In this document: in pieces, positions 3,489 through 8,329 of the stretch
Position numbering within the stretch: the first letter of the stretch is position 1
Layout: the number at the start of each line of letters is the position of its first letter
DNA from: Acidilobus sp. 7A
GTDB taxonomy: Archaea > Thermoproteota > Thermoprotei_A > Sulfolobales > Acidilobaceae
Assembly (NCBI RefSeq): GCF_003431325.1
Contig: NZ_CP010515.1
Coordinates: 558,001-622,000 of the forward strand
Length of the DNA: 64,000 nucleotides
Direction: 5' to 3'
The notes under the pieces: generated by a model
Told to the model about the DNA's origin: nothing
The model's database searches: none
What the model saw: the letters and a program-made list of their open reading frames with translations, nothing else
Translations under genes and position numbers: made by a program

Positions 3489-4695
3489 ATGCCCGCGGGC
3501 GGTGAGGGAGCGCTAACCCTGACGGTCAGGGTGAGGGTTAGCCCCGAAGCCCGAAGGCGAGCAGACTATACTTGACCTTCTGAGAAGGTACAGGGATGCA
3601 CTAAACTACTCGGTAAGGACGCTGATAGCCAGTAAGGCCCTGAGCCTCACTAAGGCCCACAGGCTCCTGTACAAAGATCTAAAGGAAAGATATGGCCTGC
3701 CATCCAAGATTGCCCAGGGCTGCTACAGGGAGGCCATCACCATAGCCAAGTCGTGGCTTAAGAACCCGAGAAGGGGCGCTGTGCCAACAGCTAAGCGCCT
3801 GAGCGTGTGGCTGACGCACGGACAGGGCTACAGGGTCAAAGGCGACCGCGTGGAGCTGATAGGAGGCTACAGGCTCAGAGTAATCGGATGGGACAGGAGG
3901 TACGATAACTTCCCTAATAGGGAGGCCAGGCTGGTGTTCAGGGACGGCAGGTTTGACCTTTATGTGACCAAGCGGGCGCCAAGGCCAGCAAAGTACGCCC
4001 CTAAGGGCGTGCTTGCCGTTGACGTGAACGAGAGGCGGATTGTCGTAGGTAACTCAAGCGTTGAGCAGAGAATCGAGACGCCCATTGAGAGGGCCCTACG
4101 CTACAGGAGGCTTGCTGAAAGGCTTGAGGAGAAGTACTCCTCGCCAAAGTACAGGACCTGGCTCAGGAGGAGTGGTATAAGGAGGAGCAGGAGGAGTGGT
4201 ATAAGGAGGAGGCTAGGATACTTCCACAGGAAGGCCAGGAATATCATAGAGGACTGGGCCAGGAAGACTGCTCATAGGATTATATCATTGGCAAAGCAGG
4301 GCCAGCTGGCTGTCGCCAGGGAGGACCTCACAGGGCTGGTGGAGAGCCTCAGGGAACTCCCGAAGGAACATAGGACCGCCCTAATTGCGCTCGGCTACAG
4401 GAGGCTGGGGTTCTGGCTTGACTGGCAGGCTGAAAAGAACGGAGTACCATTATTTGTTGTTGACCCCGCTGACACGTCCTCTACATGCCCAAGGTGCGGT
4501 ACTAAGCTAGTAGAAGTAGGGCACCGCAGGCTCAGGTGCCCAAGGTGCGGCCTTGAGGCCGACAGGGACACGGTAGCTGTGCTTAACATTGAGAGGAGGG
4601 CGCTTGGCAAGATGGGGGGATCTCTGGCCACCCCGACTGCCCCTCAAATGACAGATGTAAGCCCGAACAGATGGGGGGAACCCTCCGCCCTTTAG
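3489..4695 (+). pseudogene. tnpB: TnpB, RNA-guided nuclease of IS605 type, frameshifted
   Basis: The N-terminus starts at ATG 3489 (MPAGGEGALTLTVRVRVSP) and runs out of frame near 3545. The next frame continues as KPEGEQTILDLLRRYRDALNYS through to the catalytic part. One extra base in a run of four Cs (3542-3545) explains the shift. If unrepaired, translation could restart at GTG 3781 (304 residues) but would lose the N-terminal domain. The C-terminal part keeps the RuvC aspartate (VLAVDVNE), glutamate (AREDLTGL), two CPRCG zinc knuckles and the last aspartate (DRDTVAVLN). It is therefore catalytically intact from the middle on. Either a recent pseudogene or a base-calling error. Confidence 0.75.
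4164..4211 (+). repeat. 24-bp perfect tandem duplication inside tnpB
   Basis: Two adjacent identical 24-base units (4164-4187, 4188-4211) add eight residues in frame (the block RRSGIRRS is doubled) in the helical region between RuvC motifs I and II. The duplication keeps the frame. Confidence 0.9.
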
Positions 4696-5602: not shown

Positions 5603-6625
5603 TTATGCGCCTTTACAGCTAAGGTCTGCCACAAATATGGACTTCGACGGGCTGTACTCTATCACCTTTCTTGAGAACTCCACGTTCACGTCAGCGCAGC
5701 TCCTGGAGGCGGCCTCAACGATGTTAACGATAGCTTCATCCTGAGTCTGCGCTAAGTAGTAGACATGAAGAGTCGCTGACTGCCTTGAGGCAAGCTTACA
5801 GGCCACGTCAAGGAAGTCCGTAGATGATGTCGGATTATTCATGATTATCCTGTCAAACCTACCCTCTACTACGTTGGGCAATGCCCTGGCGTCAGACCTA
5901 AGCACGACGACCCTCCCCTTGAGCAGCTTAGCGTTAAGGGCAACATTGGCCTCAGCAAGGGCGGCCGCGTAAGGGTTGAGGTCATTTGCAACTACTGTCG
6001 CCGTGCTCCTGGAGGCCACAGCTATGGAGAATGGCGCGACGCCGCAGAACATGTCAAGGACCCTTTCATTGTTGTTGACGAGGGAGGCTATCCTTTGCCT
6101 TTCCCCGGAGAGCCTTGGGTTAAAGTACGTCTTTGCAACGTCTACGCGGAACCTCAGGCCAGACTCCTTAACCACGGTGAGGGTTTCACCAGCTCCGTAT
6201 AGCAGGACCAGCTGAGGTAGCCTCAGCTCACCCGTAGTGCCCAGCTTAAGGAAGATCGACTTCGCTCTGGGGTAAATCTCAGCGAGCTTGGAGACGGCGT
6301 TTACGTAGGTCTGAAAGCCTAGCTTGGAGCTGTAGTTCAGCAGGATTATGTCGCCAACCACCAAAAACCCCGAGACTCCTAGGTCCTCGTCAGAGAGCCT
6401 CAGGGGCCTCCTGCGCTTTTCAAACTCCGCCCTGCAGGGCCTTGCGACAACACCAGCCGACTTGAGCAGCCCTGCAGCTGCCTCAGCGTTAAGCACAGGT
6501 ATGGCAAGTTCGCCGTCTATCTTCCTCGGTCTCCAGGCGTCAAGGAGCCTGGCAGCCCTTAGAGCGGTCAGAGCCCTATTGGCATCAGCTAGGCTGACTG
6601 CAACGCACTCCCTCAGCTCGTTCAT
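5603..6625 (-). CDS. trm5: tRNA (guanine-37-N1)-methyltransferase Trm5
   Basis: Methylates G37 next to the anticodon using S-adenosylmethionine, preventing frameshifts. Seen here: KTYFNPRLSGERQRIA, the SAM-binding VLDMFCGVAPFSIAVA, the acidic NDLNPYAAALAEAN, and a NNPTSS motif in the catalytic position (often NLP in relatives). The start is ATG 6625 (about 340 residues). The frame stays open 31 codons further, but those bases are the 3' end of the RNase P RNA, whose end lies only six bases from this ATG. The mRNA is therefore probably made as a continuation of that transcript or by reinitiation after RNA processing. Confidence 0.88.
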   Translation of the reverse strand: MNELRECVAVSLADANRALTALRAARLLDAWRPRKIDGELAIPVLNAEAAAGLLKSAGVVARPCRAEFEKRRRPLRLSDEDLGVSGFLVVGDIILLNYSSKLGFQTYVNAVSKLAEIYPRAKSIFLKLGTTGELRLPQLVLLYGAGETLTVVKESGLRFRVDVAKTYFNPRLSGERQRIASLVNNNERVLDMFCGVAPFSIAVASRSTATVVANDLNPYAAALAEANVALNAKLLKGRVVVLRSDARALPNVVEGRFDRIIMNNPTSSTDFLDVACKLASRQSATLHVYYLAQTQDEAIVNIVEAASRSCADVNVEFSRKVIEYSPSKSIFVADLSCKGA

Positions 6626-6631
6626 AGTAGC

Positions 6632-6963
6632 GCACCGGGAGGCCGAGGCTGTAACCCGCCTTCTGTACTTCGGCGGCATCTGACTCAGCGGCCCTGGGGG
6701 CCTCCCGCGGCTCCTCACAGGCCCCCGCCTTGCTCCGCTGGGGACGGCCGTTTCACCGCATCCCCCGCGGTCCTCAGCCGGTTACTGCGAGCCTGTCGCC
6801 AGGCTCGCCTCGCGGCATCATAGCCATGTCGCGAGGGCCGTGTCGTCTCTGTGCCGTTGCCCAGAGGTCTGCCCTGGCCCCTTGCGGGGTCCAGCTGCCG
6901 CTGGGAGGGCGGTGTTTCCTCAGGCCTTGCGGCCCGTGGCCGCCAGCCTCGGCCTCCCGATGC
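6632..6963 (-). ncRNA. rnpB: RNase P RNA
   Basis: The catalytic RNA that trims tRNA 5' ends. On the minus strand, the 5' end (6963-6944) and 3' end (6651-6632) pair over about 20 bases to form helix P1. The conserved GAGGAAACACCGCC block (CR-I) pairs with ACAGAAGGCGGGUUAC (CR-V) to form P4, including the single bulged base seen throughout the family. Between them are GGUGAAACGGCC, GGAGCAAGGCG and an AGAUGCCGCC CR-IV-like segment. CR-I reads AAACACC instead of the usual AAAGUCC, with matching changes on the other strand. Length is about 332 bases. A TATA-like TTTATTATG is present upstream (minus strand). Confidence 0.9.
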
Positions 6964-6981: not shown

Positions 6982-6991
6982 CATAATAAAC
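6982..6991 (-). promoter_or_regulatory. TATA box of the RNase P RNA gene
   Basis: GTTTATTATG on the minus strand is 20-28 bases from the predicted RNA 5' end at 6963, the usual archaeal distance. Confidence 0.5.
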
Positions 6992-7035: not shown

Positions 7036-7902
7036 TTGCAGCAGGGGACCGCGGTAGGCATAGTTGTGAGGCCTTCAAGCGAGGTCGCCGAGGCCCTAGC
7101 GAAGAGGACCCTAGACGTCATAAAAGAGCTTGGGGCCAGGCCCCTTGTCGAGGTTGAAAGCGCGAGGAGTTATCCTGAAGTCTTCAAGGGGATTGAGACT
7201 TTTAACATAGAGAGGGACCCGCCGAGTAAGGTCATTGTAATTGGCGGCGACGGAACACTCCTGAGAGCAGCTATAAGGGCTGGGACTCATGACGTGGTGT
7301 TCCTTGCGGTTAGGGCCGGCAAGAGGGGCTTCATGCTCGACGTTGACGAGACCACGCTCAGCAGTAGGCTTAAGGACTTCATTAGTGACAGCTATGAGCT
7401 TGTTCTGCACCAGAGAGTTAAGGCTTCGCTTAACGGCGAGGAGCTCCCGTGCGCTGTGAACGATGTTGTGCTGTTCACATCAGAGGGCTCAATGGTGAGG
7501 CTCGACGTGTACCAGGTGGAGGGGGGCAATAGGGAGAGAATCATGGGCATTGATGGTGATGGGCTGATCCTATCAACTACTACAGGCTCTACAGCCTACA
7601 GCCTAAATGCAGGGGGGCCTATAGTGGATCCAAGGCTTGACGTTATAGTGCTGACCCCTCTTAACCCTGTGCAGCTCTTCCTGAGACCTGTAGTTATGTC
7701 AAGGAACAGCGTCATAAAGGTCCTCATGAGGCGCGACAGTGGGCCAGCGTACCTAGTGCTTGACGGTCAGATTAAGTATAACGTGAGGTCCGGCGATGAG
7801 GTAGAAGTTTACCCATGTGAAGTCCCCTTGAAGGTGGCTAGGTTTAAGTGGTGGTCAAACTACTATGAGAGGCTCTTCGCCCGCCTGCTCAGCTACTGGT
7901 AG
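7036..7902 (+). CDS. nadK: NAD kinase
   Basis: Phosphorylates NAD to NADP in the cytoplasm. GGDGT at residues 70-74 is the signature of the family's nucleotide site. DGDGLILSTTTGSTAYSLNAGGPIVDP is the second conserved block. Length (288) is normal. The start is a TTG at 7036 with GAGGT four bases before it. It overlaps the following nob1 frame by 38 bases, so both are probably on one transcript. Confidence 0.92.
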   Translation: MQQGTAVGIVVRPSSEVAEALAKRTLDVIKELGARPLVEVESARSYPEVFKGIETFNIERDPPSKVIVIGGDGTLLRAAIRAGTHDVVFLAVRAGKRGFMLDVDETTLSSRLKDFISDSYELVLHQRVKASLNGEELPCAVNDVVLFTSEGSMVRLDVYQVEGGNRERIMGIDGDGLILSTTTGSTAYSLNAGGPIVDPRLDVIVLTPLNPVQLFLRPVVMSRNSVIKVLMRRDSGPAYLVLDGQIKYNVRSGDEVEVYPCEVPLKVARFKWWSNYYERLFARLLSYW

Positions 7903-8329
7903 CTCCTCGTCAGTTGCTGTGCTTGACACGGGCGCCCTGATAGCGTCACTGCAGCTTAGGCTGCCGCTTACGTGCGTGACAACGCCGCAGGTCTACGACG
8001 AGGTAAAGGATGAGGAGTCTAGGTCCTCCCTCGAGCTTTCTCTAAGCCTTCACAAGCTGATCATAGTCGCACCATCACAGGACTTTCTTGGGGCTGCCTT
8101 GAGGGAGGCAGGCTCGGCCGACGTCGCAGGCAGGTTAAGCAAGGCTGACCTCAGCGTGCTGGCGTTGGCGCTTGAGCTGGCGGCGTGCGGCAAGGAAGCA
8201 TTCATTGCAACGGATGACTACTCCCTGCAGGCGGCCGCCGCTAAGGCTGGAATCAAGGTAATAAGGGTAAGGTATGCAGGGATTAGGGAGCTCAGGGGCC
8301 ACCGCGGCGCTGAGCGCGAAGGATCATAG
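7865..8329 (+). CDS. nob1: Nob1-like PIN-domain endonuclease lacking zinc ribbon
   Basis: Nob1 cuts the 3' end of 16S rRNA during small-subunit maturation. The PIN fold is visible: VLDTGALIA (first aspartate), a middle TPQVYDEVKDE acidic strand, SKADLSVLALALEL, and ATDDYSLQAAA. Archaeal Nob1 normally ends in a four-cysteine zinc ribbon. This frame stops right after KVIRVRYAGIRELRGH with no such domain. Another frame downstream (about 8330-8440) encodes CLSGSPCAYCK, which might be a remnant. The ATG at 7865 lies inside nadK; a GTG at 7918 is an alternative. A free PIN toxin is less likely given the match at both ends. Confidence 0.7.
   Translation: MRGSSPACSATGSSSSVAVLDTGALIASLQLRLPLTCVTTPQVYDEVKDEESRSSLELSLSLHKLIIVAPSQDFLGAALREAGSADVAGRLSKADLSVLALALELAACGKEAFIATDDYSLQAAAAKAGIKVIRVRYAGIRELRGHRGAEREGS

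Follow-up and report, generated by a model that had tools for sequence, protein, structure and literature searches.

A natural adenine at the bulged position of helix P4 in the archaeal RNase P RNA of Acidilobus and related genomes

Textbooks treat the bulged U in helix P4 of RNase P RNA as invariant, and it is cited as a ligand of catalytic Mg2+. Papers published from 2019 to 2025 name it a universally conserved U (PMC6565675; PMC9433436; PMC10731613; PMC11221534; PMC12710915). In Acidilobus sp. 7A, a 64,000-nucleotide stretch of contig NZ_CP010515.1 (positions 558,001 to 622,000; hereafter the window) contains a region that reads as rnpB, the gene for the RNase P RNA, a ribozyme that trims tRNAs, with an A at this position. 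The locus therefore raises the questions of whether this region is indeed a functional rnpB and of what a natural A says about the role of the bulged U.

The region at 6632-6963 on the minus strand had originally been predicted to be rnpB hidden in an apparent coding extension of its neighbor trm5, and a search with the archaeal RNase P covariance model had been proposed as a check. Run against all Rfam families, cmscan returned archaeal RNase P RNA (RF00373) at 6955-6640 on the minus strand with 149.4 bits (E 3.3e-42; gathering cut-off 84 bits), covering the full model (1-288); the only other Rfam matches in the window were two tRNAs. The whole genome holds one copy of rnpB, a single copy is conserved in every close relative, and of 147 genomes sampled from the window's order, 131 match RF00373. 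The fold of the RNA has a z-score of -7.4 relative to shuffled sequences. Helix P1, already seen in the original reading, consists of 19 continuous pairs that join both RNA ends and extend the Rfam match to 6962/6633. Together with a TATA-like box about 24-26 nt before 6962, it favors the limits first given for the gene over those of the Rfam match. Such a spacing between a TATA box and the 5' end of P1 is typical of archaeal promoters. The elements of the gene are as follows:

6632-6963, minus strand: rnpB, archaeal RNase P RNA (RF00373 match, P1 closing at 6962/6633, single copy)
6983-6990, minus strand: TATA-like box TTTATTAT, probable rnpB promoter with a start near 6962, from sequence reading
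6944-6962, minus strand: 5' strand of P1 (19/19 positions pair with 6633-6651)
6633-6651, minus strand: 3' strand of P1 (19/19 positions pair with 6944-6962)
6904-6921, minus strand: CR-I, GAGGAAACACCGCCCUCC, containing the P4 5' strand (6916-6908) with the bulge at 6913
6913, minus strand: bulged A of P4 (alignment column 76), the position of E. coli U69, T. maritima U52 and M. jannaschii U42
6842-6852, minus strand: CR-II, ACAGAGACGAC
6677-6690, minus strand: CR-IV, CGCUGAGUCAGAUG
6652-6666, minus strand: CR-V, ACAGAAGGCGGGUUA, containing the P4 3' strand (6660-6653)

The RNA is like other members of RF00373 in its full-length match, all five conserved regions, P1 and P4, and its single copy, but differs from them in the bulge of P4 (A rather than U) and in the pair 5' of the bulge (C-G rather than G-C).

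Open reading frames overlie this region on both strands, as the original prediction had noted, and several frames are open through it, which could suggest coding sequence or a pseudogene instead of an RNase P RNA. There is practically no chance that such a reading is correct: the covariance-model match refutes it, and P1, the covariation in P4 described below and the conservation of one copy in all close relatives also argue against it. The frame that holds trm5 does begin inside rnpB, at GTG 6718, but the extension is spurious, being simply open frame upstream of ATG 6625, the start that fits the PF02475 protein. From ATG 6625, Trm5 proper has 340 aa, and 7 nt separate the end of P1 from the start codon. 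Two congeneric genomes likewise have trm5 starting just 3' of rnpB on the same strand, in agreement with the earlier view that the coding extension is only apparent. The two flanking genes are:

5603-6625, minus strand: trm5, TRM5/TYW2-family tRNA methyltransferase directly downstream of rnpB, true start ATG 6625 (PF02475, 5.7e-37; homologues)
7036-7902, plus strand: NAD kinase, divergent neighbor (PF20143, 1.9e-25; PF01513)

Because no separate TATA-like sequence for trm5 was seen within the 3' part of rnpB, its transcription may start at the rnpB promoter. The two consecutive genes (window 5603-6963) both belong to tRNA maturation and are possibly co-transcribed. Elsewhere in the window, an ORF at 3781-4695 is TnpB-like (Cas12f1-like TNB domain, PF07282), and one at 7865-8329 encodes a PIN_6 domain (PF17146) and overlaps the last part of the NAD kinase gene. 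The viral_contigs scan gave no matches.

The departure from the usual form of CR-I lies in two bases, C6914 and A6913. CR-I reads GAGGAAAC[A]CCGCC, whereas the usual form is GAGGAAAG[U]CCNCC. The P4 partner strand is GGCGGGUUA, in which G6655 pairs with C6914. The original prediction that the partner strand had changed to match thus applies to C6914-G6655 and not to A6913, which has no partner because it is the unpaired, bulged base, a point that the prediction did not make. The compensated change from G-C to C-G at 6914-6655 is shared by almost all members of the order and by many other Thermoproteota. Otherwise, P4 is the expected pseudoknot helix joining CR-I to CR-V, in which three pairs, a one-nucleotide bulge and five pairs follow each other as in the standard geometry. 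Absence of P4 pairing in related genomes had been named as grounds for abandoning the rnpB assignment; in the order's 131 genomes, 99.7% of P4 cells are paired, compared with 25-47% when the strands are slid by 1-2 columns and at most 90% when they are shuffled. Compensatory changes occur at several pairs on both sides of the bulge, including an A-U to G-C change beside the active site. Pairing and covariation together fix the bulge at 6913, between pairs 6914-6655 and 6912-6656.

Of these 131 genomes, 76 have U and 55 have A in the bulge, and none has C or G. Of 11 families, 8 contain the A bulge, and some genera and families have it fixed; three genera contain both states. On a maximum-likelihood rnpB tree built without the bulge column, the base has switched at least 11 times, and well-supported branches define 8 independent A/U pairs. 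The A-type RNAs include those of single-contig genomes of high completeness, so the A is not an assembly error. In A-type and U-type RNAs alike, the active-site columns next to the bulge vary little or not at all. All 55 A-type genomes, that is, the one with A6913 and 54 others, score above the RF00373 cut-off; a bulged U therefore cannot be a defining feature of the family. The "universal" rule fails: two fifths of the related archaeal genomes that were read carry a natural A. This contradicts the statements of 2019-2025; earlier mention of single A-type sequences is possible.

Outside the order, the bulge is U in 98 of 102 genomes of other Thermoproteota that were read. The remaining four belong to two genera of one family (here f31), whose P4 has no bulge at all: it reads GAGGAAGCCCACC / GGUGGGCUA (or a close variant), with a 5' strand one base short and continuous pairing. 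The four f31 RNAs match RF00373 with 170-186 bits, and their bulge-less P4 is a stronger departure than the A bulge of Acidilobus. The protein-only enzyme HARP was not found in three near-complete f31 genomes, and Rpp29 is present in both f31 genomes examined for it, which are near-complete and lack HARP. When 84,980 genomes were scanned with one strict pattern for non-U bulges, all counts being lower bounds, at least 24 RNase P RNAs with an A bulge were found. Among them are one Asgard archaeon (Baldrarchaeum) and one Hadesarchaea genome, the latter with one P4 mismatch and of less sure quality. The same scan found a C bulge after a U-A pair in one uncultured archaeon (L147:7209-7290); a match in Sphingomonas was a chance match. 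A separate irregularity of P4, a G-A mismatch just 5' of the bulged U, was seen at four loci of family f38 and two of family f36 (GAGGAAAGUCC / GGGGGAUUA; GGGGAAGGUCC / GGAGGACUA).

Almost all A bulges follow a C-G pair (one follows U-G). That this pair forces an A was rejected, since many RNAs outside the order have C-G and retain U; the C-G pair may instead allow an A without forcing it.

One explanation for the A is that it is slightly damaging and is tolerated where selection on RNase P is relaxed, either by HARP or by tRNAs that are nearly leaderless. As regards HARP (PF08745), an order-wide survey of 147 genomes found it in 3 of 41 near-complete A-type and 28 of 61 U-type genomes, a difference that partly reflects shared ancestry. 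HARP was rejected as the back-up enzyme behind the A bulge, since 38 of the 41 near-complete A-type genomes do without it and it is commoner among U-type genomes. The Acidilobus genome also encodes Rpp29 (PF01868; 412760-413002); given both observations, the RNP enzyme is probably the sole RNase P there. Short tRNA leaders do exist in many of these genomes: for 30 tRNA genes of the Acidilobus genome, the distance from the TATA-like box to the 5' end is mostly about 29 nt, which implies very short leaders, compared with about 38 nt in an Aeropyrum-like genome. A first comparison of Acidilobus-like with Aeropyrum-like genomes suggested leader length as the cause, but in five matched pairs of A-type and U-type genomes it was about equal. 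Moreover, the rest of the catalytic core is conserved in A-type RNAs, and the A persists throughout entire genera and families, which makes relaxed selection a quite improbable explanation.

A somewhat better candidate, though still an unlikely one, is that the role of the U has been taken over by another site in the RNA, by a protein subunit or by a change in the tRNAs. In the RNA, the only signals in this direction are weak ones at window positions 6797 and 6723, and 796 column/base tests on independent pairs found no column that tracks the bulge base (at best, 3.8 of 7 pairs changed in the same way). In the tRNAs, an A-type genome and a U-type genome look alike at pairs 5:68 and 6:67.

The most likely explanation is that the catalytic Mg2+ would be bound by the backbone of CR-I and CR-V, with the bulge serving mainly to set the geometry of that backbone. 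Either A or U would then suffice, as a base that the helix cannot absorb, and the contacts specific to U in other enzymes (O4 to a metal; a major-groove triple with an acceptor-stem A-U pair) would be weak or absent here. Published structures and mutants bear on this on both sides. In a Geobacillus RNase P structure, the phosphates that hold the metals MeA and MeB belong to A50, G51, A389 and A390, and U52 is inserted in the acceptor stem, where it forms a triple with tRNA A6:U66 (PMC13254310); this U52, next after G51, is presumably the bulged U. Two genomes of the window's family, one A-type and the other U-type, were read for tRNA pair 6:67: each of the 30 tRNAs examined per genome has G-C or C-G at this pair, so that a U-A-U triple could not form there with either base. 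In E. coli, the U69A mutant has an approximately 10-fold lower kc and retains substrate binding, with P4 pairing unchanged (PMC11221534). A loss of only this size, with binding kept, favors the geometric role; the substitution is identical to that in Acidilobus, but it is a laboratory mutant of a bacterial RNA, whereas the A described here is natural and long-lived. Against the geometric role, activity of the M. jannaschii U42A mutant is greatly diminished (PMC6565675), and in T. maritima the O4 of the bulged U has been placed on a metal (reviewed in PMC9433436). The absence of any compensating site found elsewhere in the RNA also counts against it. The M. jannaschii RNA has the same architecture, with the bulged P4 nucleotide at the catalytic center, but its bulge is U42 and the preceding base is U41, a context that differs from the C-G of Acidilobus. 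On balance, and judged from sequence comparison, it is very likely that 6632-6963 encodes a functional archaeal RNase P RNA in which metal is bound through the backbone and A or U can both serve in the bulge.

It is likely that RNase P has no universal bulged U: a large archaeal group would naturally use A, with at least 8 switches back and forth, and one Thermoproteota family would do without a bulge. If so, the uracil base, and perhaps even the bulge, would not be an indispensable ligand of the catalytic metal. Alignments and search rules that require a U are wrong for these archaea. Natural A-type and bulge-less enzymes offer material for separating metal binding, helix geometry and substrate contact, the roles debated in 2024-2026.
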